A DNA stretch of 33,348 bases. Origin: Chitinophagaceae bacterium (GTDB lineage Bacteria; Bacteroidota; Bacteroidia; Chitinophagales; Chitinophagaceae). The DNA lies in contig CANCPA010000031.1 in NCBI GenBank assembly GCA_947379895.1, positions 1-33,348 of the forward strand, read 5' to 3'. The stretch's first letter is position 1; every line of letters starts with the position of its first letter. Position numbers and translations under genes: made by a program. This document shows positions 10,509 to 27,876 of the stretch, one piece after another. The notes beneath the pieces were generated by a model. The model had not been told where the DNA came from and did not search any database. It saw only the letters and a program-made list of their open reading frames with translations.

Positions 10509-10676
10509 GTTCTAAAATTATTTTCCAATATCATTAATGGTAAAAAGTAGATAAAGGTATTGTGTCGCTATTAATTCAAAAATACATACTATTCTTGCAG
10601 TCGTTTTGCGAAGTTGAATAGTAGCGTTCAGGCAGCAAAACATATTAATATAGTATCAATCAAAAAAATTATTATC

Positions 10677-13600
10677 ATGAAAAGTAAAATTTTACTCTTT
10701 TTGCTTGTTTCTTTCTGTTTTAGCTTAAACATTTTTGCTCAAACGGCTTCTCCTTCCTTTATAGGTGGTGCAAATCAGTCGTTAACTATTTGTGAAAATG
10801 CAAGCAGTTATGTCATAGACAGTTATTTTTCTACTTATGATAATACAAATGGGTTGACTTTAACATATTCAATAGTTACACCTCCGATTCATGGAACGCT
10901 ACACGGTTTTCCTGGTTCAGGAAGTAGTAATAGCGGTGTTTTTAATCCTTCAGGGTTTAATTATTCTCCTACTACAGGATATAGTGGTTCAGATAATTTT
11001 CAGATAAGAGTTTCTGATGGTATTTCAAGTGCTATTACTTCGGTTAGTGTAACTATTAATACGCTTCCTACGATTTCTGCAATTACGGGAACTCCTTATG
11101 TCTGTGGCGCAAATTCATCAACACTAAGTAATGCCTCTACGGGGGGTAAATGGACTAGTAATTCAATAAATGCAACAGTTGATAGCCTTACAGGTGTGGT
11201 TACGGGTGCATATGTTGGATCTGCCACTATAACTTATACGGTAACGAATGCGAGTGGTTGTTCTGCGACTGCTTCAACCAATTTCGTTGTTAGTGGTACA
11301 CCACTAGTTGCATCAATCACTGGTACTGGGACTGTTTGCGTAGGGTTAACTACAACTCTAGCAGATGCTACAGCTAATGGAGTTTGGAGTAGTAGTAATA
11401 CAAATGCTGCCACAGTAAATTCGAGTGGGGTAGTTACGGGTGTAGCTGCAGGTGCAGGTGGGGCCACTATTTCCTATACAATAACCAATTCTTACGGTTG
11501 TAGTGGAGCTTCTACAAGAAATGTAACGGTAAGCAATAGTCCTACGGTTAATGCAATCACTGCTGCAGTAACAAAAGTGTGTGTTGGTAGTACCATTACA
11601 ATGACAGATAATACTTTTGGAGGTACTTGGTCGAGTAGCAATACTGCCCTTGCAACAGTAGTTTCTAGAGGAGGGTTCCCATCTACTGCAACTATTACCG
11701 GTGTTTCTGCAGGTACTGATACTATTCTTTATACTACCACAAATGGAAACGGTTGTTCTGCTTCTAGTAAAGTAGCAATTACTGTTGGTGCAATTCCTGT
11801 GGTTGGAGCAATTAATGGTACAAAAACAGTTTGTGCAAAATCAACTACACAATTATCAAATACAACTTCGGGAGGTGTTTGGACAACAAGTAGTGCTGCT
11901 ATTGCAACAGTGAGTTTAAGTGGATTAGTAACAGGTGTTACTGCAGGAAATGCAACAATAACTTATACAGTTACAAATGCTACCGGATGTTCTACTGCTG
12001 TTACAACTACTGTTACAGTGGTTGCAGCACCTGTAGTTGCGGCAATTACAGGTACTAATACAACTTGCGTAGGATCAACTACAACATTAGCTGATGCCAC
12101 AGCAGGTGGAACTTGGACAAGTAGTAATGACGCAATTGCAACAGTTAATACTACGGGAACTGTTACAGGAAATGCATTTGGTACTGATACTATCTATTAT
12201 ACAGTTACGGGGCCCTCTTGTAATACTACAGTGTCATATCCCGTTACAGTAAGTTCAGGAATTGTTGTACCTGCAATTGGTGGCGTATCTTCAGTTTGTA
12301 CAGGTTCTACTGCAACACTTACAGATGCTACAAACGGTGGAGTATGGTCGAGTAGTAATACGGCTGTTGCCACAGTCAATGCAAGTGGTGTGGTTACTCC
12401 TGTTGCGATAGGTTTGACTGTTATAAAATATACTTTAGGTATTGGTACATGTACAGGAAGTGCTATTAAGAATGTAACTATAAACGCTACTCCAGTATTG
12501 ACTGATAATAATATTGTTTCTACAACAATCTGTTCTTCCGATTCAGTTTTATTGACAAATACTACAAGTGGTGGTGTTTGGTCAACTAATAATGCAGCTG
12601 TAGCAACAGTTAGTCAAACTGGATTAGTGAAAGGTGTGTCAGCAACAACACTAACTACTGGAATTGTTTATACTGTCACAAATGCTTACGGTTGTTCTGC
12701 TACTAAATCTAGTAATATTACAGTAAATGCTAAACCTGCTGCCTTTACTATTACTGGTACAAATGCAACATGTATAGGAACATCCACTGGATATTCCACA
12801 TCAGGAAATGGTGGTGCATGGGCAACAAGTAATAGTGCAGTTCTTCGGTTAACAAATACTGGTAATAATGCAACAATTACGGGGTTAACAGCAGGTAATT
12901 CTACTGTATCCTATACAGTTTCTAATGGTGTTTGCTCTACAGTAAGTTCAACGGTGGTTACTGTGGGTGCTACAGTAACTGTTTCTCCAATTCAAGGTGC
13001 TTCAACTGTTTGTGTGGGTACAAATAGTACGTACACCGACTCTACTACAGGTTCTGGATTAGGAGGCGCTGCTTGGAGTGTGATTAATGGAACTGGTACA
13101 GCTACAATTGGTGGAACAGGTGCATTGTCGCCAAGTACTGCAGGAACAGTAACTGTAAAATATACTTATACTAGAGGCGCCTGTACAGGTTCTGATTCTA
13201 AGGTAGTTACGATATATCCCGTGCCAACAGTATCTGCAATAACAGGAACAACCACAGTTTGTGTTGGTAATACAACCACACTTTCAGATGGGACTTCTGG
13301 TGGAAAATGGTCTAGCGGTAATACTGCGCAATTGGTAATAGATTCATTAACTGGTGTTGCAACTGGTGTAGCGAGGTCTTTTGCTGGCGTTACAGTTACC
13401 TATAAATATACGAATGCAGGAGGTTGTAGTGCATCTGCTAGTACATCAGTAACTGTAAATGCAGGAACAGTACTTCGTGCAAATACGGGTACTACATCTT
13501 TGTGTGCTGGCTCAACTACTACATTAGCAAATACAACTGCAGGAGGAACATGGTCGAGTAGTAATACTGCAATTGCTACAGTAAATGGTTCAGGAGTTGT

Positions 13601-16600
13601 AAGTGGCGTTGCTGCGGGTACAGTAGTGATTCAATATCTTATTACCACAGGAGGTTGTCCTAGTTATGCAAATAGTACAATAACAGTGAATGCATTACCA
13701 ACTGTATTGGCAACAACAGGAAATTCTTCTTCCTGTGCCGGAAGTGCAACTGCGTTAGTTAATTCTTCAACAATACCTACAGGAGGAACAGGTATTTGGA
13801 GTAGTACCAATACATCGTTAGCAACTGTTTCAGCAACAGGAATTGTGACAACAATTGCTGCTGGTATTGATACTATTAATTATAAAGTTACCAATACAAA
13901 TACGGGTTGTACAAATACAGCTATTCTTCCTTTTACTATTAATGCAAATCCGGTAGTAGCTGCTATTTCAAGTGCAGGAACAACAGTTTGTGTGGGAAGT
14001 ACTCTCGCTTTGACTGATGCTACAAGTGGTGGTACTTGGGGAATAAATGATACTTCTTTAGCAAAAATATCTGCAAGTGGAGTCGTTTCTGGAAATAAAG
14101 TTGGTGATGTAGTGGTAACTTATACTGTTTCTAAAAATGGTTGTACTACAATCGTTTATGGAAATGGAACCGTAGAACCATTGCCTGTAGTAGCAGCAAT
14201 TACTGGAACTACTACTCTTTGTCAAGCTAGTACATCAAAATTATCAAGTACTACAACGGGAGGTGTTTGGACAAGTAGCGATACTTCAATTGCAAAAGTA
14301 GATGCTGCAGGTACGCTAACAGGAATTGGTGCGGGTAATGCGACAATTACTTATACAGTAACGAGTATTTATGGTTGTGTTACTGCTGTAACTACAACTG
14401 TAAAAATAAATCCTCTACCTGTAGTTGCTGCAATCACAGGAAACGCTGCCATTTGTTTTGGAGGAACTCAAACTTTGGGTGAAACAACAACAGGTGGTGT
14501 TTGGTCAAGTGTGAATACTTCAATTGCAAACATTAATAACACTGGTTTATTTACACCTGTTACAATAGGCGTTGATACCATTAATTATACTGTTACCAAT
14601 TTATTCAATTGTATAACGACTGTTTCAAAAGTCATTACCATCAATGCTACTCCTGTTGCATCATTTACGGTAAATAAAGTCTCTCAATGCCTTAGTGGTA
14701 ATTTGTTTGTTTTCAATAATACGAGTACAATAAGTGCAGGTTCAATTACTTATTCATGGACAATAGATGGCAAAAACTTTACCACTACAAGTCCTACCTA
14801 TACTTTTGCTATTGCAGGAAAATATATAGTGAAATTAGTGGTGACAAGTGGAACAGGTTGTACGGACAGTGTATCACAAACAATTACTGTCAATCCTCAA
14901 CCTGTACCAACCTTTACTATTAATAATGCAAATCAATGTTTAACAGGAAACAGTTTTGTATTGACAAATGGCAGTACAATAGCTAGTGGAACTGAAACTT
15001 TTAGTTGGAATTATGGAGATGGAACGGCAGTTTCAACAACTACAAATCCTACACATGCCTATACTAAGGCTGGTTCATATTCTATTGTATTGACTGCTAC
15101 TAGTGATAGTAGTTGTGTGGATAGTACTAGTCAAATAGTTACCCTAACTGCAAATGTTACGCCTACTGTTTCAATCAGTGCATCAGCAACAAGTATTTGT
15201 GCTGGTACTTCAGTTACGTTTACTGCAACGCCTGTAAATGGTGGAACCACTCCTGCTTATCAATGGAAAAAGAACGGCGTTATTGTAGGAACAAATTCAA
15301 GTGTATATAGCAATAATAGTCTTGCAAATGGAGAAGTAATTACTTGTGTTTTAACAAGCAATGTAACCTGTGTGACAGCATCAACTGCAACAAGTAATTC
15401 TGTTACAATGGCAGTAGCACAATATGCTACTCCTTCAGTAAGTATTAGTGCAACTTCAACTACAATTTGTACAGGGACAAGTGTAACATTTACTGCAACT
15501 CCTTCAAATGGTGGGGTTACTCCTGCCTATCAATGGCAGAAGAATGGAGTTAATGTAGGAACTAATTCTACTACCTATACGATAGCGTCTTTGGTGGATA
15601 ATGATAAGATTACTTGTATTTTGACTAGCAGTGTTACTTGTGTAACCTCAAAGACAGCTACAAGCAATACAGTAACGATAACTGTAAATCAACCTACAAC
15701 TTCAACTACAAATGCAAGCATCTGTGCCGGTGGTTCATATAGTTTCAATGGTACTACATACACGACAGCAGGTACTTATGTTGCTCATTTAACAAACTCA
15801 GTTGGTTGTGATAGTGCTGCTACTTTAAACTTAACAGTTAAGTCACTCAGTACAAGTACTACAAATGCAAGTATCTGTGCCGGCGGTTCTTACACCTTCA
15901 ATGGTACAGCTTACACTACAGCAGGAACTTACGTTGCACATCTAACAAATGCGGTAGGATGTGATAGTGCTGCTACTTTGGTTCTTACTATCAAATCACT
16001 TAGTACAAGTACTACAAATGCAAGCATCTGTGCTGGCGGTTCTTACACTTTTAATGGTACTACCTATACTAAAGCAGGAACTTACATTGCTCATCTAACA
16101 AATGCGGTTGGTTGTGATAGTGCCGCTACACTGAACTTAACAATCAAGGCATTGAGTACAAGCACTACAAATGCAAGTATCTGTGCAGGCGCAAGCTATA
16201 CATTTAATGGTACTGCTTATACTACAGCAGGTACCTATGTTGCACATTTGACAAACTCAGTAGGTTGTGATAGTACTGCTACGCTGAACTTAACAGTTAA
16301 GGCACTCAGTACAAGTACTACAAATGCAAGTATCTGTGCTGGCGGTTCTTATACCTTCAATGGTACAGCTTACACTACAGCAGGAACTTACGTTGCACAT
16401 CTAACAAATGCAGTAGGATGTGATAGTGCTGCTACTTTGGTTCTAACTATAAAAGCATTGAGTACAAGCACCACAAATGCAAGCATCTGTGCCGGAGGTT
16501 CATATAGTTTCAATGGTACTTCCTACACTACAGCAGGAACTTATGTTGCTCATCTGACAAATGCAGTAGGTTGTGATAGTACTGCTACGCTGAACTTAAC

Positions 16601-19600
16601 AGTTAAGGCACTCAGTACAAGTACTACAAATGCAAGTATCTGTGCAGGAGCAAGCTATACATTTAATGGTACTACTTACACTACAGCAGGAACATATGTT
16701 GCTCATTTAACAAATGCGGTTGGTTGTGATAGTGCTGCTACATTAAACTTAACAATTAAGGCACTCAGTACAAGTACTACAAATGCAAGCATCTGTGCCG
16801 GAGCAAGCTATACGTTTAATGGTACTGCTTATACTACAGCAGGTACTTATGTTGCTCATCTGACAAATGCAGTAGGTTGTGATAGTGCCGCTACTTTAAA
16901 CTTAACAATTAAGGCATTGAGTACAAGCACCACAAATGCAAGTATCTGTGCAGGCGGTTCTTATAGTTTTAATGGTACTACCTACACGAAGGCAGGTAGC
17001 TACGTTGCACATCTGACAAATGCGGTTGGTTGTGATAGTGCTGCTACTTTGGTTCTTACTATCAAATCACTGAGTACAAGCACTACAAATGCAAGTATCT
17101 GTGCAGGAGCAAGCTATACCTTTAATGGTACTGCTTATACTACAGCAGGTACTTATGTTGCTCATCTGACAAATGCGGTTGGTTGTGATAGTGCCGCTAC
17201 GCTGAACTTAACAATTAAGGCACTCAGTACAAGTACTACAAATGCAAGCATCTGTGCAGGAGCAAGCTATTCATTTAATGGTACTACCTACACGAAGGCA
17301 GGTAGCTACGTTGCACATCTAACAAATGCAGTTGGTTGTGATAGTGCTGCTACGCTAAACTTAACAATCAAGGCACTCAGTACAAGTACTACAAATGCAA
17401 GTATTTGTGCAGGAGCAAGCTATACCTTTAATGGTACTGCTTATACTACAGCAGGTACCTATGTTGCACATTTGACAAACTCAGTTGGTTGTGATAGTGC
17501 TGCTACACTAAACTTAACAATCAAGGCACTCAGTACAAGTACTACAAATGCAAGCATCTGTGCTGGCGGTTCTTACAGTTTCAATGGAACAGCTTACACA
17601 ACAGCAGGAACTTACATTGTACATCTAACAAATGCGGTTGGTTGTGATAGTGCCGCTACACTGAACTTAACAGTGAAGGCATTGAGTACAAGCACTACAA
17701 ATGCAAGCATCTGTTCAGGAGCTAGCTATTCATTTAATGGTACTACCTACACGAAGTCAGGTAGCTACGTTGCACATCTAACAAATGCAGTAGGATGTGA
17801 TAGTGCTGCTACTTTAAACTTAACAGTTAAGGCACTCAGTTCAAGTACTACAAATGCAAGTATCTGTGCGGGCGGTTCTTATAGTTTTAATGGTACTACC
17901 TACACGAAGGCAGGTAGCTACGTTGCACATCTGACAAATGCGGTTGGTTGTGATAGTGCTGCTACGCTAAACTTAACAATCAAGGCACTCAGTACAAGCA
18001 CTACAAATGCAAGTATTTGTGCAGGAGCAAGCTATACCTTTAATGGTATTGCTTATACTACAGCAGGTACCTATGTTGCACATTTGACAAACTCAGTTGG
18101 TTGTGATAGTGCTGCTACGCTAAACTTGACAGTGAAGGCACTCAGTACAAGTACTACAAATGCAAGCATATGTGCAGGAGCAAGCTATACCTTCAATGGT
18201 ACTACATACACTACAGCAGGAACTTATGTTGCTCATTTGACAAATGCAGTAGGATGTGATAGTGCTGCTAGATTAAACTTAACAATTAAGGTAGTGAGTA
18301 CAAGCACTACAAATGCAAGCATATGTGCAGGGTCAAGCTATATATTTAATGGTACTACATACACTACAGCAGGTACTTACGTTGCTCATTTGACAAATGC
18401 AGTTGGATGTGATAGTGCTGCTACACTAAACTTAACATTGAAGGCACTCAGTACAAGTACTACAAATGCAAGCATCTGTGCAGGCGGTTCATATACATTT
18501 AATGGAACTACTTACACTACAGCAGGAACTTATGTTGCACATTTGACAAATGCAGTAGGATGTGATAGTGCTGCTACGTTAAACTTAACAATTAAGGCAT
18601 TGAGTACAAGTACCACAAATGCAAGCATCTGTGCAGGAGCAAGCTATACCTTTAATGGTACAGCATATACTACAGCAGGTACTTACGTTGCACATCTAAC
18701 AAATGCAGTTGGTTGTGATAGTGCTGCTACGCTAAACCTAGCAATTAAGGCACTCAGTACAAGCACTACAAATGCAAGTATCTGCGCTGGAGCAAGCTAT
18801 ACATTCAATGGTACTACTTACACTACCGCAGGAACGTACGTGGCACATTTGACAAATGCAGTAGGATGTGATAGTGCTGCTACTTTGGTTCTAACAATTA
18901 AGGCATTGAGTACAAGCACTACAAATGCAAGTATCTGTGCAGGCAGTTCTTATACCTTTAATGGTACTACCTACACTCAAGCAGGTAGCTACGTTGCACA
19001 TTTAACAAATTCTGTAGGTTGTGACAGTGCTGCTACGCTAAACCTATCAATCAAGGCATTGAGTACAAGTACCTCAAATGTAAGTATTTGTGCAGGGGCA
19101 AGCTATATCTTCAATGGTTCTACTTACACTACTGCAGGAACTTATGTGGCTCATTTAACGAATGCAGTAGGTTGTGATAGTGCCGCAACTCTAAACTTAA
19201 CAATTAAGGCTTTGAGTACAAGCACTACAAATGCAAGTATCTGTGCAGGTGCAAGCTATACCTTTAATGGTTCTACCTACACTACAGCAGGAACTTATGT
19301 TGCTCATCTGACAAATGCGGTTGGTTGTGATAGTGCTGCTACTTTGGTTCTAACTAATAAGGCCTTGAGTACAAGCACTACAAATGCAAATATCTGTGCT
19401 GGAGCTAGCTATACATTCAATGGAACAGCTTATACTATAGCAGGTACTTATGTTGCTCATTTAACAAATGCGGTTGGTTGTGATAGTGCTGCTACTTTGG
19501 TTCTAACTATTAAGGCCTTGAGTACAAGCACTACAAATGCAAGTATCTGTGCAGGAGCAAGCTATACGTTTAATGGTACTACCTATACTAAAGCAGGAAC

Positions 19601-22600
19601 TTACATTGCTCATCTAACAAATGCGGTTGGTTGTGATAGTGCTGCTACTTTAAACTTAACTGTAAAAGCTTTGAGTACAAGCACAACAAATGCAAGTATC
19701 TGTGCAGGCGGTTCTTACACCTTCAATGGTACAGTTTACACTACAGCAGGAACTTACGTTGCTCATTTAACAAACTTAGTAGGTTGTGATAGTGCAGCAA
19801 CGCTGAACTTAACAATCAAGGCACTCAGTACAAGTACTACAAATGCAAGCATCTGTGCGGGCGGTTCTTATACCTTTAATGGTACTACTTACACTACAGC
19901 AGGAACTTACGTGGCACATTTGACAAACTCAGTTGGTTGTGATAGTGCTGCTACGCTAAACTTAACAATCAAGGCACTCAGTACAAGTACTACAAATGCA
20001 AGTATCTGTGCCGGCGGTTCTTATAGTTTTAATGGTAATACCTACACGAAGGCAGGTAGCTACGTTGCACATCTGACAAATGCGGTTGGTTGTGATAGTG
20101 CTGCTACGCTTAATTTAACAATCAAGGCTTTGAGTACAAGCACTACAAATGCAAGTATCTGTGCAGGAGCAAGCTATACCTTTAATGGTACTGCTTACAC
20201 TACAGCAGGAACTTATGTTGCTCATTTAACAAATGCGGTTGGTTGTGATAGTGCTGCTACTTTAAACTTAACAGTTAAGGCACTCAGTACAAGTACTACA
20301 AATGCAAGTATCTGTGCAGGAGCAAGCTATACCTTTAATGGTTCTACTTACACTACAGCAGGAACATATGTTGCTCATTTGACAAATGCAGTAGGATGTG
20401 ATAGTGCTGCTACGCTGAACTTAACAATTATGGCACTCAGTACAAGCACTACGAATGCAAGCATCTGTGCCGGTGGTTCTTACACCTTCAATGGTACAGC
20501 TTATACTACAGCAGGTACTTATGTTGCTCATTTAACAAATGCGGTTGGTTGTGATAGTGCTGCTACACTAAATCTAACACTAAAGGCACTCAGTACAAGC
20601 ACTACAAATGCAAGTATCTGTGCAGGTAGTTCTTATATTTTCAATGGTACAGCTTACACTACAGCAGGAACTTACGTTGCTCATTTAACAAACTCGGTTG
20701 GTTGTGATAGTGCTGCTACTTTAAACTTAACAGTTAAGGCACTCAGTACAAGTACTACAAATGCAAGTATCTGTGCAGGTGCAAGCTATATCTTTAATGG
20801 TACTACTTACAATACAGCAGGAACTTATGTAGCACATCTAACAAATGCGGTTGGTTGTGATAGTGCTGCTACGCTGAACTTAACAATCAAGGCATTGAGT
20901 ACAAGCACCACTAATGCAAGTATCTGTGCGGGCGGTTCTTACACCTTCAATGGAATAGCTTACACTACAGCAGGCACTTATGTTGCTCATTTAACAAATG
21001 CGGTTGGTTGTGATAGTGCTGCTACGCTAAACCTAACAATTAAGGCACTCAGTACAAGCACTACAAATGCAAGCATCTGTGCGGGAGCTAGCTATACATT
21101 TAATGGTACTACTTACACTACAGCAGGCACTTATGTTGCTCATTTGACAAATGCAGCAGGATGTGATAGTGCTGCTACGCTAAACTTAACAATAAAAGCC
21201 TTGAGTACAAGCAGTACAAATGCAAGTATCTGTGCCGGCGCAAGCTATACCTTTAATGGTTCTACCTACACTACAGCAGGAACTTACATTGCACATCTAA
21301 CAAATGCGGTTGGTTGTGATAGTGCCGCTACTTTGGTTCTAACTATTAAGGCCTTGAGTACAAGCACTACAAATGCAAGTATCTGCGCAGGCGGTTCTTA
21401 TAGCTTTAATGGTTCTACTTATACTTCAGCAGGAACTTACGTTGCACATCTAACAAATGCGGTTGGTTGTGATAGTGCTGCTACGCTGAACTTAACAATT
21501 AAGGCACTCAGTTCAAGTACTACAAATGCAAGCATCTGTGCAGGTGCAAGCTATATCTTTAATGGTACTACTTACAATACAGCAGGAACTTATGTAGCAC
21601 ATCTAACAAATGCAGTAGGATGTGATAGTACTGCTACACTAAATTTAACAGTTAAGGCACTCAGTACAAGTACTACAAATGCAAGTATCTGTACTGGCGG
21701 TTCTTATACCTTTAATGGTACAGCTTACACTACAGCAGGAACTTATGTTGCTCATTTAACAAACTCGGTTGGTTGTGATAGTGCGGCAACTTTGGTATTG
21801 ACTGTTACACCAACTGTAACACCGACTGTATCTATTACTGCAAGTTCCACAACTATCAGCAGTGGTTCTAGTGTGACATTTATTGCAGCACCACTTAATG
21901 GCGGAGCTACTCCTATGTATCAATGGGTTAAGAATGGTATAAATATTTCAGGTGCCAATTCAGACACATTGATAACCTCGAGCCTGAATAATAAAGACAC
22001 AATTACTTGTATTTTAACAAGTAGTATTGGTTGTGTTACTAGTATTTCGGTTACTTCAAATTCTATTGGAATTACTGTTAATTCTCTATTCACTATTAGC
22101 GGTTCAGTCAAAAATCCTTTGGGTGCAATTATTCCGACTGTTACTGTAAGCTTGAATGGCACGCAGTCTGTTACTACTGATGTAAATGGTAATTATAGTT
22201 TCACAGGGTCACCTGATAGTAGTTTTGTTATTATGCCTTCTAAGAACAATGATAAGACGATTGCTAATGGTGTAAATGGTACTGATATCAGTTTGATTCA
22301 AAGTCATATCTTGAAGAAGGTAATATTTAATGCGCCTTATAAGTTAATAGCTGCTGATGTAAATAGTGATGGTGCTGTAAATGGTACTGATATCGCCTTG
22401 ATTAAATCGTTAATCTTAAAGCGTATTACCAAATTCACTGGCAATAAGTTGTGGGCCTTTGTAGATAGTAGTTATAGTTTCCCTACTCCAACTAAGCCGT
22501 TTCCTTTCCATGACAGTATCAGTATTGCCAAAATTTCGACTAATCAATCAAACCAAAACTTCATTGGGGTTAAATTGGGAGATGTAAACTATGATTGGAA

Positions 22601-23321
22601 TTCAGCTATTTTGGGTGCTAATCTTTCTAGTACATCCATTGAATTATTCAATGATAAAATTGCAGTTAGTCCAGTTGCAACAGAAGTTCGTGTGCCTGTT
22701 AAGGTCAAGAATTTCAAGAACATCATGGGTATGCAATATACTTTGAACTATAATAGTGATGCATTAGAATTGAAAGCTGTTGAAAATAACAGTATTCGTA
22801 TGGATTATAATACTGATTATGCTTCAGAGGGTATGTTGCCAATACTATGGGTAGATGCAGCGAGTGAACCAAAATCATTGGAAGATGGTACTACCTTGTT
22901 CGAGTTGGTATTTAATAAGAAAGGTAATTTAACAAATGAAGACATTAGTCTTACTTCCGATATTACTGCTGCAAGTGCATTCGATGGAAACTACAATACT
23001 GTTGGAATTGTTAAATCGGGTGGAACTATTAGTGATGCTGCCTCTATTGTAAGTTCAGATAGTTGGAATGTAGTTCCAAATCCTACAAAAGATGGATTAG
23101 TAAAAGTAGTTTTATCTCTTGCAAAAGGAAAGAAAGTTCAGTTCGAATTAACATCTCTCGAAGGAAAGTTGTTAATGCAACAAACTACTGTTTTCCCTGT
23201 TGGAAATAGTTCAATTGTTCTTGACCTTCAAAAACAAGTAAGACTAACACCGGGTATCTACTATTTGAAAGCTATCGGTGTTGATGGCGTTAATATTAAA
23301 CAAGTATTATTTGTGAAATAG
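10677..23321 (+). CDS. Giant multidomain T9SS-secreted adhesin-like protein, 4214 aa
   Basis: Start chosen at ATG 10677, not the upstream in-frame TTG at 10614, because it begins a signal peptide (MKSKILLFLLVSFC ... NIFAQ). Approximate order by residue: cadherin-like segment 25-130; 15 Big_2-like modules of ~80 aa to about 1325, each with a GGxWSSSNTAxATV core; two PKD-like domains 1327-1492 (second has WNYGDG); two Ig-like domains 1495-1672; 40 copies of a 51-aa repeat 1673-3712; another Ig-like domain 3713-3803; carboxypeptidase-regulatory-like stalk 3804-3858; dockerin-like pair 3860-3918; cohesin-like domain ~3989-4121; T9SS type A sorting domain 4130-4214 (NVVPNPTKDG ... PGIYYLK). Predicted to be exported by Sec then T9SS and attached to or released from the surface; adhesion is inferred from architecture only. 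No catalytic domain is seen. The mass is roughly 420 kDa. Confidence 0.93.
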   Translation: MKSKILLFLLVSFCFSLNIFAQTASPSFIGGANQSLTICENASSYVIDSYFSTYDNTNGLTLTYSIVTPPIHGTLHGFPGSGSSNSGVFNPSGFNYSPTTGYSGSDNFQIRVSDGISSAITSVSVTINTLPTISAITGTPYVCGANSSTLSNASTGGKWTSNSINATVDSLTGVVTGAYVGSATITYTVTNASGCSATASTNFVVSGTPLVASITGTGTVCVGLTTTLADATANGVWSSSNTNAATVNSSGVVTGVAAGAGGATISYTITNSYGCSGASTRNVTVSNSPTVNAITAAVTKVCVGSTITMTDNTFGGTWSSSNTALATVVSRGGFPSTATITGVSAGTDTILYTTTNGNGCSASSKVAITVGAIPVVGAINGTKTVCAKSTTQLSNTTSGGVWTTSSAAIATVSLSGLVTGVTAGNATITYTVTNATGCSTAVTTTVTVVAAPVVAAITGTNTTCVGSTTTLADATAGGTWTSSNDAIATVNTTGTVTGNAFGTDTIYYTVTGPSCNTTVSYPVTVSSGIVVPAIGGVSSVCTGSTATLTDATNGGVWSSSNTAVATVNASGVVTPVAIGLTVIKYTLGIGTCTGSAIKNVTINATPVLTDNNIVSTTICSSDSVLLTNTTSGGVWSTNNAAVATVSQTGLVKGVSATTLTTGIVYTVTNAYGCSATKSSNITVNAKPAAFTITGTNATCIGTSTGYSTSGNGGAWATSNSAVLRLTNTGNNATITGLTAGNSTVSYTVSNGVCSTVSSTVVTVGATVTVSPIQGASTVCVGTNSTYTDSTTGSGLGGAAWSVINGTGTATIGGTGALSPSTAGTVTVKYTYTRGACTGSDSKVVTIYPVPTVSAITGTTTVCVGNTTTLSDGTSGGKWSSGNTAQLVIDSLTGVATGVARSFAGVTVTYKYTNAGGCSASASTSVTVNAGTVLRANTGTTSLCAGSTTTLANTTAGGTWSSSNTAIATVNGSGVVSGVAAGTVVIQYLITTGGCPSYANSTITVNALPTVLATTGNSSSCAGSATALVNSSTIPTGGTGIWSSTNTSLATVSATGIVTTIAAGIDTINYKVTNTNTGCTNTAILPFTINANPVVAAISSAGTTVCVGSTLALTDATSGGTWGINDTSLAKISASGVVSGNKVGDVVVTYTVSKNGCTTIVYGNGTVEPLPVVAAITGTTTLCQASTSKLSSTTTGGVWTSSDTSIAKVDAAGTLTGIGAGNATITYTVTSIYGCVTAVTTTVKINPLPVVAAITGNAAICFGGTQTLGETTTGGVWSSVNTSIANINNTGLFTPVTIGVDTINYTVTNLFNCITTVSKVITINATPVASFTVNKVSQCLSGNLFVFNNTSTISAGSITYSWTIDGKNFTTTSPTYTFAIAGKYIVKLVVTSGTGCTDSVSQTITVNPQPVPTFTINNANQCLTGNSFVLTNGSTIASGTETFSWNYGDGTAVSTTTNPTHAYTKAGSYSIVLTATSDSSCVDSTSQIVTLTANVTPTVSISASATSICAGTSVTFTATPVNGGTTPAYQWKKNGVIVGTNSSVYSNNSLANGEVITCVLTSNVTCVTASTATSNSVTMAVAQYATPSVSISATSTTICTGTSVTFTATPSNGGVTPAYQWQKNGVNVGTNSTTYTIASLVDNDKITCILTSSVTCVTSKTATSNTVTITVNQPTTSTTNASICAGGSYSFNGTTYTTAGTYVAHLTNSVGCDSAATLNLTVKSLSTSTTNASICAGGSYTFNGTAYTTAGTYVAHLTNAVGCDSAATLVLTIKSLSTSTTNASICAGGSYTFNGTTYTKAGTYIAHLTNAVGCDSAATLNLTIKALSTSTTNASICAGASYTFNGTAYTTAGTYVAHLTNSVGCDSTATLNLTVKALSTSTTNASICAGGSYTFNGTAYTTAGTYVAHLTNAVGCDSAATLVLTIKALSTSTTNASICAGGSYSFNGTSYTTAGTYVAHLTNAVGCDSTATLNLTVKALSTSTTNASICAGASYTFNGTTYTTAGTYVAHLTNAVGCDSAATLNLTIKALSTSTTNASICAGASYTFNGTAYTTAGTYVAHLTNAVGCDSAATLNLTIKALSTSTTNASICAGGSYSFNGTTYTKAGSYVAHLTNAVGCDSAATLVLTIKSLSTSTTNASICAGASYTFNGTAYTTAGTYVAHLTNAVGCDSAATLNLTIKALSTSTTNASICAGASYSFNGTTYTKAGSYVAHLTNAVGCDSAATLNLTIKALSTSTTNASICAGASYTFNGTAYTTAGTYVAHLTNSVGCDSAATLNLTIKALSTSTTNASICAGGSYSFNGTAYTTAGTYIVHLTNAVGCDSAATLNLTVKALSTSTTNASICSGASYSFNGTTYTKSGSYVAHLTNAVGCDSAATLNLTVKALSSSTTNASICAGGSYSFNGTTYTKAGSYVAHLTNAVGCDSAATLNLTIKALSTSTTNASICAGASYTFNGIAYTTAGTYVAHLTNSVGCDSAATLNLTVKALSTSTTNASICAGASYTFNGTTYTTAGTYVAHLTNAVGCDSAARLNLTIKVVSTSTTNASICAGSSYIFNGTTYTTAGTYVAHLTNAVGCDSAATLNLTLKALSTSTTNASICAGGSYTFNGTTYTTAGTYVAHLTNAVGCDSAATLNLTIKALSTSTTNASICAGASYTFNGTAYTTAGTYVAHLTNAVGCDSAATLNLAIKALSTSTTNASICAGASYTFNGTTYTTAGTYVAHLTNAVGCDSAATLVLTIKALSTSTTNASICAGSSYTFNGTTYTQAGSYVAHLTNSVGCDSAATLNLSIKALSTSTSNVSICAGASYIFNGSTYTTAGTYVAHLTNAVGCDSAATLNLTIKALSTSTTNASICAGASYTFNGSTYTTAGTYVAHLTNAVGCDSAATLVLTNKALSTSTTNANICAGASYTFNGTAYTIAGTYVAHLTNAVGCDSAATLVLTIKALSTSTTNASICAGASYTFNGTTYTKAGTYIAHLTNAVGCDSAATLNLTVKALSTSTTNASICAGGSYTFNGTVYTTAGTYVAHLTNLVGCDSAATLNLTIKALSTSTTNASICAGGSYTFNGTTYTTAGTYVAHLTNSVGCDSAATLNLTIKALSTSTTNASICAGGSYSFNGNTYTKAGSYVAHLTNAVGCDSAATLNLTIKALSTSTTNASICAGASYTFNGTAYTTAGTYVAHLTNAVGCDSAATLNLTVKALSTSTTNASICAGASYTFNGSTYTTAGTYVAHLTNAVGCDSAATLNLTIMALSTSTTNASICAGGSYTFNGTAYTTAGTYVAHLTNAVGCDSAATLNLTLKALSTSTTNASICAGSSYIFNGTAYTTAGTYVAHLTNSVGCDSAATLNLTVKALSTSTTNASICAGASYIFNGTTYNTAGTYVAHLTNAVGCDSAATLNLTIKALSTSTTNASICAGGSYTFNGIAYTTAGTYVAHLTNAVGCDSAATLNLTIKALSTSTTNASICAGASYTFNGTTYTTAGTYVAHLTNAAGCDSAATLNLTIKALSTSSTNASICAGASYTFNGSTYTTAGTYIAHLTNAVGCDSAATLVLTIKALSTSTTNASICAGGSYSFNGSTYTSAGTYVAHLTNAVGCDSAATLNLTIKALSSSTTNASICAGASYIFNGTTYNTAGTYVAHLTNAVGCDSTATLNLTVKALSTSTTNASICTGGSYTFNGTAYTTAGTYVAHLTNSVGCDSAATLVLTVTPTVTPTVSITASSTTISSGSSVTFIAAPLNGGATPMYQWVKNGINISGANSDTLITSSLNNKDTITCILTSSIGCVTSISVTSNSIGITVNSLFTISGSVKNPLGAIIPTVTVSLNGTQSVTTDVNGNYSFTGSPDSSFVIMPSKNNDKTIANGVNGTDISLIQSHILKKVIFNAPYKLIAADVNSDGAVNGTDIALIKSLILKRITKFTGNKLWAFVDSSYSFPTPTKPFPFHDSISIAKISTNQSNQNFIGVKLGDVNYDWNSAILGANLSSTSIELFNDKIAVSPVATEVRVPVKVKNFKNIMGMQYTLNYNSDALELKAVENNSIRMDYNTDYASEGMLPILWVDAASEPKSLEDGTTLFELVFNKKGNLTNEDISLTSDITAASAFDGNYNTVGIVKSGGTISDAASIVSSDSWNVVPNPTKDGLVKVVLSLAKGKKVQFELTSLEGKLLMQQTTVFPVGNSSIVLDLQKQVRLTPGIYYLKAIGVDGVNIKQVLFVK
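15693..21812 (+). repeat. 40 x 153-bp coding tandem repeat (51 aa per unit) in the giant gene
   Basis: Forty units counted in translation fill 6120 bp exactly, so no unit has an insertion or deletion. A typical unit has the features LSTSTTNASICAG, SYTFNGTAYTTAG, TYVAHLTNAVGCDS and AATLNLTIK. Each carries two cysteines, in ICAG and GCDS, about 28 residues apart. Variation is confined to a few positions: G/A/S after ICAG, T/S/I before FNG, T/A/S before YT, TTAGT versus TKAGS, NAV versus NSV, LNLT versus LVLT, TIK versus TVK. The two edge units (1 and 40) differ most at their outer ends. Such two-Cys beta modules occur in large Bacteroidota surface proteins. Confidence 0.97.
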
Positions 23322-24844: not shown

Positions 24845-24951
24845 CTCAATAATAGAGCACAAATTGACAATAAGTGCTCTATTATTGAGAGTTTGACATC
24901 TATTATTGTCAATAAGTGACCACTTATTGTCAATTTGTGGTCTCTTATTTA
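24845..24951. repeat. 21-bp array 3 (5 units) forming long hairpins
   Basis: Five 21-bp units begin at 24847, 24868, 24889, 24910 and 24931, sharing CAATAAG at the start and TTATTG at the end. Units are themselves near-palindromic: CAATAAGTG at 24910-24918 pairs with CACTTATTG at 24921-24929 across two bases. Adjacent units are also complementary: CTCAATAATAGAGCAC at 24845-24860 pairs perfectly over 16 bp with 24874-24889 around a 13-nt loop. GACCAC (24918-24923) can pair alternatively with GTGGTC (24937-24942). The array begins 241 bp beyond the tgt stop. Function unknown; a transcription terminator or protein-binding array are possibilities. Confidence 0.88.
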
Positions 24952-26592: not shown

Positions 26593-27876
26593 ATGAGTTT
26601 TGATGCTTTGTCATTTGGGTTTTATCTTCTTCTCTTTTGTTTTCTCATCACACGCATTCCCTTTTTTAAAAATTCGGGTATTGTTATTTGGATGCTGATT
26701 GCATTATACTGCACAAAAGTTGGAGTAGGAGTATTGTATGGGCTCTATTTTAAATCGCCTTTGCTTCTTTATAAATCAGATACTTGGCGTTATTACAGAG
26801 AAAGTCTTCCCGAAACACAACTATTGTTAAATAATCCCATTTTATTTATTAAGTCTCTTTTCAGTAGCAATTATGCAGAAACCGGAGGTTTGTTTGTTAG
26901 CAAAAATTCCTATTGGAATGATTTGAAGGATAATATTATCATTAAATTATTTGCTATTTGCAATGTTTTTAGTAGGAATAATTATTTTACAAATACTATA
27001 TTCTTTAACTTTTTGTCCCTTTTTGGATTAGTAGCATACTATCGTCTTGTAAAGCTTTATAGTATATCGCATCAATATCTATTACTTGCTTCTATCTTTT
27101 TACTACCATCCTTTTTATTTTGGGGGAGCGGCATTCATAAGGATGGATTGATGTTCTCGGCACTTGGACTTGTATTATTTTCGTTTCAGCGTATTATAAA
27201 AAATGATGGAACTTTCAAGTATTGGTTTACTCTAATAATTTGTTTTTTCTTTATTTTTTTCGTTAAAAACTATATTGCTCTTGCATTAATTCCTGCTCTT
27301 TTGGGATGGTGGCTAGCTGATAGGAATCAGCAGAGACATGAGTTTTATTTTATTGCTGTTTATTCAGGCTTTTTGTTATTGATTATAATGATTGCAATGA
27401 TGGGTAGTCAATTTAACGCCCTATATTATATTGTAAACAAGCACAATGATTTTTTATCATTAAATGGTAACTCAGCTATTTCTGTACGTCCTCTTTCGGC
27501 AAATACAGAAAGTGCCATATTTTATTTGCCTACAGCTATTGATATTGCTTTTTTTCGACCGCATCCTTTCGAGTCAAAGAACATTGCTTATTTGCTTTCT
27601 TTTTGTGAAATTGCAGCTACATTAGTGATTACCCTTATTTTTATCGGCTCAGCAAAGCTTAATAGGCTAATGCCCCCATTTTTTATTTGTTGCTTTTATT
27701 TTGCATTTAGTATTCTGTTATTAGATGGGTATATAGTTACATTTTCGGGGGCCATTGTTCGATATAGGAGTTTAATGTTACCATTTTTAATTACTCCAAT
27801 GATTGCATTGATACCAGAAAAGAGAAAGAGGAGTGGCGAGAGAAGTTTGAATTTGAAGAAAGAAAAGGTCCTTTAA
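26593..27876 (+). CDS. Polytopic inner-membrane protein of unknown function
   Basis: The 427-aa protein has about ten hydrophobic segments (near residues 5-20, 30-52, 126-148, 157-174, 180-197, 207-240 as two, 248-268, 330-352, 358-380, 392-410). A larger extracytoplasmic or cytoplasmic loop lies around 55-120 (SDTWRYYRESLPETQ ... NSYWNDLKDN). Conserved-looking polar motifs at membrane edges are WGSGIHKDGL (~174-183) and VRYRSLMLPF (~389-398). That layout resembles polysaccharide polymerase or lipid-linked-sugar transferase families (Wzy/EpsG or GT-C-like), but I do not recognise a specific family and assign no function. It lies between tyrS and tmk with 81 bp to tmk. The C terminus is a basic tail (EKRKRSGERS). 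Confidence 0.75.
   Translation: MSFDALSFGFYLLLFCFLITRIPFFKNSGIVIWMLIALYCTKVGVGVLYGLYFKSPLLLYKSDTWRYYRESLPETQLLLNNPILFIKSLFSSNYAETGGLFVSKNSYWNDLKDNIIIKLFAICNVFSRNNYFTNTIFFNFLSLFGLVAYYRLVKLYSISHQYLLLASIFLLPSFLFWGSGIHKDGLMFSALGLVLFSFQRIIKNDGTFKYWFTLIICFFFIFFVKNYIALALIPALLGWWLADRNQQRHEFYFIAVYSGFLLLIIMIAMMGSQFNALYYIVNKHNDFLSLNGNSAISVRPLSANTESAIFYLPTAIDIAFFRPHPFESKNIAYLLSFCEIAATLVITLIFIGSAKLNRLMPPFFICCFYFAFSILLLDGYIVTFSGAIVRYRSLMLPFLITPMIALIPEKRKRSGERSLNLKKEKVL

Follow-up and report, generated by a model that had tools for sequence, protein, structure and literature searches.

What does a run of 40 in-phase 153-bp repeats build, what holds its units to one another, and how are the units kept alike? 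These questions are raised by a 33,348-nucleotide stretch of DNA (the window) that makes up contig CANCPA010000031.1, positions 1 to 33,348 of the forward strand, in the Chitinophagaceae bacterium assembly GCA_947379895.1. The host is a water-dwelling Bacteroidota bacterium. The repeat array occupies 15693-21812 within a gene at 10677-23321 (+), which from ATG 10677 encodes a secreted adhesin-like protein of 4214 residues. The array is probably the stalk of a very large surface adhesin that leaves the cell through the type IX secretion system (T9SS), and its minimal immunoglobulin (Ig)-like units would each be stapled to the next by a disulfide between two cysteines (Cys1 and Cys2). Old recombination over short tracts would have shuffled these units while they were under purifying selection. 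The observation new to this analysis is the joint loss of Cys across neighbouring units, which points to a stapled stalk.

Paired loss of cysteines in neighbouring units

The initial annotation described 40 units of 153 bp at 15693-21812 with no indel, and its coordinates stand unchanged. The 6120 bp equal 40 x 153 bp, or 40 x 51 codons, with the frame of the open reading frame (ORF) kept and with zero indels and zero stops. Tandem Repeats Finder likewise reports a single array (15705-21784, period 153, 39.7 copies, 83% matches, 0% indels). Since identity to the unit consensus drops to 31% and 35% in the adjoining 153 bp on each side, the array borders are real, and units 1 and 40 carry some flank-like residues on their outer edges. 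All 40 units are distinct, with a mean pairwise identity of 83.2% in DNA (72-96%) and 89.3% in protein; the low divergence first described thus holds for the protein and less so for the DNA. The indel-free phase, formerly taken as a sign of selection and homogenisation, says little about either. Comparison of the flanks yields a rate of 0.008-0.034 indels for each amino-acid difference. At this rate the 45 to 138 amino-acid changes of the array would bring roughly 0.4-5 events, so that zero indels are unsurprising; among 45 arrays that have 10 units or more, 9 are spaced just as uniformly.

Two cysteines are among the most conserved residues of the unit (93% and 94%). They were lost together within one unit once in more than 1,100 distinct units, and this near-absence of co-loss rules out an obligate disulfide inside the unit. 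When Cys1 of unit i is paired with Cys2 of unit i+1, both are kept in 916 cases and both lost in 39, while Cys1 only is lost in 7 and Cys2 only in 0 (Fisher p 1e-62); on inspection, the 7 lone losses are for the most part alignment shifts. Looser Cys calls give the same kind of table (874, 14; 7, 44; p 1e-55). The reverse bond, from Cys2(i) to Cys1(i+1), shows no co-loss and is ruled out. Co-losses are spread over 25 ORFs and 16 residue combinations (K/G, V/A, D/A, N/F, T/Y, L/E and others) and occur in Chitinophagaceae, Paludibacter, and rumen Bacteroidales, and they therefore represent repeated independent loss rather than one inherited pair. The ends of arrays follow the pattern that offset pairing demands, as Cys1 of the last unit is kept in 52 of 58 arrays if a Cys follows within 130 residues and lost in 15 of 16 if none does (p 4e-10). 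In a later set drawn from other families, losses are few but follow the same pairing (421, 0; 2, 1; p 0.007; chain ends 31, 0; 0, 1; p 0.03). This covariation suggests that successive domains are joined by a disulfide from Cys1 of unit i to Cys2 of unit i+1.

The predicted fold places the two residues accordingly distant within a unit. Units 7-10 of the array were modelled with AlphaFold from an alignment of 85 four-unit stretches, giving a predicted local distance difference test score (pLDDT) of 95.3. The model contains five strands per unit (residues 2-10, 15-17, 20-22, 26-33, and 39-49 in the first unit, the others being alike) with two residues between units, and forms an unbroken chain of beta domains; such a rod-like chain agrees with the stalk proposed in the initial annotation. 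Cys1, where strand 1 ends, is predicted to sit at the far pole of the unit, and Cys2, immediately ahead of strand 5, at the near one. Cys1(i) and Cys2(i+1) would thus meet at the same junction, and Cys1 and Cys2 of one unit would lie at opposite poles. The top structural matches of the model are fragments of grappling hook protein A (GhpA) from Aureispira sp. CCB-QB1 (VIA Z 6.0-6.9, root-mean-square deviation 6.1-7.3 over ~200 residues), followed by titin and other tandem Ig proteins. These middling Z values speak for a similar arrangement and not for relatedness of the unit, and no solved structure matching the unit by sequence was found. If a rise of 3.5-4 nm per unit is taken from the 11-residue last strand, the array may, at a guess, extend ~140-160 nm.

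It could be proposed that this is an ordinary stalk of independent Ig-like beads, each with an internal disulfide, lengthened by recent tandem duplication as in a plain Periscope-type protein. The published Periscope screen selects tandem repeats longer than 50 residues whose protein identity is 80% or more (PMC8201768), and the array, with its 51-residue unit and its mean protein identity, falls within it; the model also shows a tandem rod of domains. However, within-unit co-loss is practically nil and neighbour co-loss near perfect, the predicted strand order sets the two Cys of a unit at opposite poles, and the array has neither exact repeats beyond 95 bp nor a neighbour effect, which leaves this explanation unlikely. 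Alternatively, Cys1(i) and Cys2(i+1) may touch but bind metal or stay reduced, the co-loss then reflecting contact and not a disulfide. Covariation indeed proves only contact or shared function. Yet the protein is exported and offers just two Cys per site, and replacements such as K/G, V/A, D/A, and N/F give no hint of metal ligands, although no systematic search for other co-varying ligands was made; a metal site or a reduced pair appears improbable. The inter-unit disulfide is thus the preferred reading of the contact.

The host protein and its proposed cysteine ladder

The ORF as called has 4235 codons from an upstream TTG at 10614, but ATG 10677 is the better start, with the signal peptide right after it. 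The protein is organised as follows.

10677-23321 (+): gene for the 4214-residue secreted adhesin-like protein
10677-10742 (+): signal peptide, MKSKILLFLLVSFCFSLNIFAQ, judged by eye
10752-11072 (+): first domain, Big_9-like, with a first-type Cys at residue 39 (10791-10793) and no second-type Cys
11073-14666 (+): ~15 successive Ig-like (Big_2) domains, all carrying a single Cys of each type
14667-15140 (+): two PKD domains, with the Cys pattern of the Big_2 run
15159-15692 (+): two Ig-like domains, with the Cys pattern of the Big_2 run and one extra Cys each
15693-21812 (+): putative stalk of 40 tandem 51-residue mini-Ig units, in all 40 of which residue 11 is Cys1 and residue 39 is Cys2
21813-22084 (+): post-array Ig-like domain, with a second-type Cys (residue 3786, 22032-22034) and no first-type Cys
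22092-22226 (+): carboxypeptidase-regulatory-like domain
22272-22415 (+): dockerin type I-like domain
22680-22967 (+): cohesin-like domain
23073-23306 (+): type IX secretion type A C-terminal sorting domain (TIGR04183, above cut-off)

The sorting domain scores 26.0 bits in one search (cut-off 23) and 31.1 bits in another, and the SprA translocon is encoded in the same genome (TIGR04189, 2308 bits, contig C41). The stalk is proposed on the basis of the signal peptide, the sorting domain, SprA, the predicted chain of domains, and the structural matches to tandem Ig proteins. According to this proposal, the T9SS would export the protein and the sorting domain would tether it at the outer membrane, the stapled array acting as a stiff spacer that carries the N-terminal Ig/PKD domains away from the cell. 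Each unit, a minimal five-stranded Ig-like domain, would bond through its Cys1 to Cys2 of the next unit, stapling the neighbours, and the chain of staples would run from the first domain through the Ig domain behind the array. Since each internal unit would supply half of a bond to both neighbours, gain or loss of whole units would leave the chain intact; the staple would explain both the retention of the two Cys in every internal unit and the tolerance of integer changes in unit number. We infer the disulfide chemistry, the stiffness, and the adhesion, as well as recombination as the source of the linkage pattern given below.

The same offset extends along the protein. It contains 60 first-type Cys (20 before the array and 40 inside) and 60 second-type Cys (19 before the array, 40 inside, and residue 3786 behind), shifted by one domain against each other, as the second type is missing from the first domain and the first type from the last Ig domain. 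The entire ectodomain (~3,750 residues, 61 domains of several types) may form one disulfide ladder of 60 bonds, in which the first domain would lack a backward half and the last a forward half, and such a ladder may be a general principle of T9SS fibres of Bacteroidota, GhpA included; the chances for and against this extension are about even. The three Ig-like domains that flank the array also carry an additional Cys each (residues 1557, 1647, and 3778; 15345-15347, 15615-15617, and 22008-22010), which lies in an ITC motif and precedes the Cys of the second type by 8 residues.

The dockerin- and cohesin-like domains beside the sorting domain raise the alternative of a cellulosome-like scaffold that binds carbohydrate or cohesin. 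Both the Dockerin_1 and Cohesin matches exceed their cut-offs, but both domains are missing from the closest homologue over the N-terminal part, a 47-unit protein that finishes directly in a short sorting region, so that they are dispensable to the architecture. A scaffold function is accordingly doubtful, about as much so as a metal site, and a surface stalk is favoured. The C-terminal modules are swapped between homologues (window 21813-23321, L056, and L029), the 47-unit sister (L056) being the one with the short sorting region, and the dockerin-/cohesin-like tail is shared at 74% identity with a 15-unit paralogue.

No fewer than 150 T9SS sorting domains of type A are encoded in the source genome, where the 51-residue repeat recurs in ~20 more genes; both figures indicate a large repertoire of surface proteins. 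The genes that flank the locus, for a K-channel and a tRNA-guanine transglycosylase, have no gene of this kind as a neighbour in 12 congeners within the reach of the contigs. Elsewhere in the window, a 427-residue ORF (26593-27876) between the genes for tyrosyl-tRNA synthetase and thymidylate kinase has zero Pfam matches up to E 0.1, and degenerate 21-bp tandem repeats occur between genes at 753-918 (CAATAACTCTGTATGAAAGTC type) and at 24863-24949 (ATTGACAATAAGTGATCTATT type, partly palindromic).

Family, copy number, and probable shuffling of the units

The window array is one member of a large repeat family, the unit of which is a minimal Ig-like domain without a name. A two-unit query at E 1e-10 matches 214 of 299 sampled Chitinophagales genomes (72%). 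No curated Pfam or NCBIfam model describes the unit; matches are scattered, and at most 11 of 85 members share one family (PKD_4). The Pfam matches DUF5722, K-cyclin_vir_C, and Peptidase_M11, with no significant stretch or few members, were dismissed as chance effects of composition. By name, relatives are mostly metagenome-assembled genomes (MAGs) of Chitinophagaceae, several apparently from freshwater series, and further members occur in Saprospiraceae, Paludibacter, Taibaiella, Flavobacteriales, and rumen Bacteroidales.

The nearest homologue over the N-terminal part, L056 (G004:C32) from another species of the genus, is 62% identical over 1672 residues and contains 47 units, every spacing being 51 residues, with a C-terminus unlike that of the window protein. 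The paralogue in the source genome (G000:C2) has 15 units and is 53% identical in the N-terminal and 74% in the C-terminal part, and unit counts of 26, 29, and 19 or more occur in other homologues whose N-terminal parts are collinear. With the window protein, the collinear set thus comprises assembled arrays of 15, 19+, 26, 29, 40, and 47 units. The variation in unit number anticipated by the initial annotation is therefore seen among collinear homologues, from 15 to 47, in a comparison that covers one genome per species and hence other species and paralogues, not strains. Such array lengths are not confined to drafts, since a 54-unit array (L172, G220:C1), with 51 spacings of 49 residues, sits in a single-contig genome of 3.5 Mb. 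The array of L056 shows a three-unit higher-order period, with an identity of 0.78 at lags 3 and 6 versus 0.705 overall and exact repeats to 134 bp; unlike the window array, it carries a newer block duplication. Over part of L056, one unit is without Cys1 and the next without Cys2, leaving staples missing at every third unit.

Selection on the window array is strong at the protein level, as initially proposed. Nonsynonymous differences (pN) average 0.070 and synonymous differences (pS) 0.464, with a pS ceiling of 0.71 at codon-usage saturation; pN/pS is 0.15, and the other ten arrays examined give 0.30-0.46. The units are 0.83 identical to one another versus 0.56-0.72 on average to units of any other array, and concerted evolution has therefore occurred. 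The claim of ongoing homogenisation stands in part: the units were homogenised at some time, but recent whole-unit turnover is not seen, as the longest exact repeat is 95 bp, identity is independent of distance along the array with neighbours no more alike, and synonymous differences reach about two thirds of saturation. Linkage between third positions (r2) is 0.14 at up to 6 bp and falls to background by ~20-30 bp (pairwise homoplasy index, PHI, p 0.014). Synonymous diversity is uneven, some codons being fixed in 40 of 40 units and others reaching the ceiling, which is expected for a few founder variants that were reshuffled.

Three scenarios were simulated as rough models, not formal fits. 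Star divergence produces flat linkage with no local signal and is rejected; unequal crossing-over on its own raises the similarity of neighbours by 0.10-0.16 and lets identical units persist, unlike the data, and is also rejected. Conversion tracts of 30-60 bp reproduce the observed linkage decay and the lack of a neighbour effect, fitting much better than the other two. Old exchange of short tracts would thus account for the linkage pattern, with recombination as its probable cause. Constraint at the nucleotide level was considered for the invariant codons (for example Ser41, always AGT) and rejected; other arrays have these codons almost fixed too, and it takes more than one step to leave them, so that ancestry suffices. 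Codon choice in 15693-21812 differs from that in the rest of the window (Ile ATC 63% versus 15%, Lys AAG 84% versus 36%, Tyr TAC 45% versus 15%), and the bias is site-specific, as though fixed by founder units.

The mosaic pattern and the exact count of 40 might also be products of short-read metagenome assembly. The source genome (G000) is a 5.3-Mb draft in 401 contigs, and short-read assembly can reveal an array only if it lacks long identical stretches. Of 45 long arrays, 13 reach the edge of the available DNA, which means that assemblers break here and that longer identical units would be lost or collapsed. Against this, exact repeats of at most 95 bp leave an assembly graph with longer words unambiguous, the 20-30 bp scale of the shuffling lies below the usual length of assembly words, the reading frame is unbroken over 12.6 kb, and long in-phase arrays recur in the sister MAG (47 units) and in the one-contig genome (54 units at 49-residue spacing). 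An assembly origin is the least probable of the alternatives considered, and the array is probably a genuine product of old exchange between units.

The proposed stapled stalk among known surface proteins

Several observations weigh against a stapled adhesin stalk. The predicted template modelling score (pTM) of the four-unit model is only 0.60. Six arrays lose the last Cys1 although some Cys follows, divergent units in L177 (two real exceptions) and L105 break the pairing rule, and in the window protein residues 1557, 1647, and 3778 are Cys outside the rule (signal peptide aside) and have no partner. Big_2 domains hardly ever lose a Cys, which deprives the co-loss test of power, and a staple there rests solely on the end pattern. 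The simulated conversion models yield a lower diversity than observed. Finally, no adhesive head domain was identified, the N-terminal part yielding only Ig-like and PKD domains.

The nearest solved relative is GhpA (PDB 9flp, 9fls, 9flu-9fly, 9g8b), likewise a giant Bacteroidota protein with tandem Ig-like domains. The N-terminal part of the window protein is related to it by sequence (phmmer E 1.5e-39 over residues 1-930, and 9e-26), though these Ig domains are repetitive and the similarity partly generic, and an alignment fragment shows Cys at like places. The profile of the 51-residue unit has no match to GhpA at E up to 1. The hook protein is T9SS-secreted according to a review (PMC11205867). 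GhpA forms a heptameric hook in a predator.

SprB-type gliding adhesins of Flavobacterium are large, repetitive, T9SS-exported surface adhesins (PMC11205867). The window protein resembles SprB as a predicted large, repetitive surface adhesin of T9SS type, but the listed Pfam matches, for the unit and for its relatives alike, include no SprB repeat. Periscope Proteins (SasG, Rib, and the SHIRT repeats of Sgo_0707) share tandem folded domains of high protein identity, and in these the length of the rod is set by copy number (PMC8201768; PMC9704523). The window array differs in its DNA identity of only 83% with no long exact repeats, in the T9SS in place of wall anchoring, and in neighbours that are apparently stapled. 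Cross-linked Ig-like repeats that form a covalent spine occur in a 51-domain adhesin of Mobiluncus mulieris, in Spy0128, and in Cpe0147 (PMC10619420). The links of these Gram-positive adhesins (isopeptide, ester, or disulfide) lie within a domain, in contrast to the disulfide proposed here between successive domains. A search of the accessible literature on the repeat and on inter-domain disulfides in Bacteroidota returned no papers.

The unit thus lacks a name in Pfam and NCBIfam despite its presence in most of the sampled Chitinophagales genomes. As known covalent adhesin spines are built inside domains, a disulfide between domains would be a different solution. If it exists, the stalk would resist being pulled apart at its linkers, and the bond pattern would survive the gain or loss of whole units.

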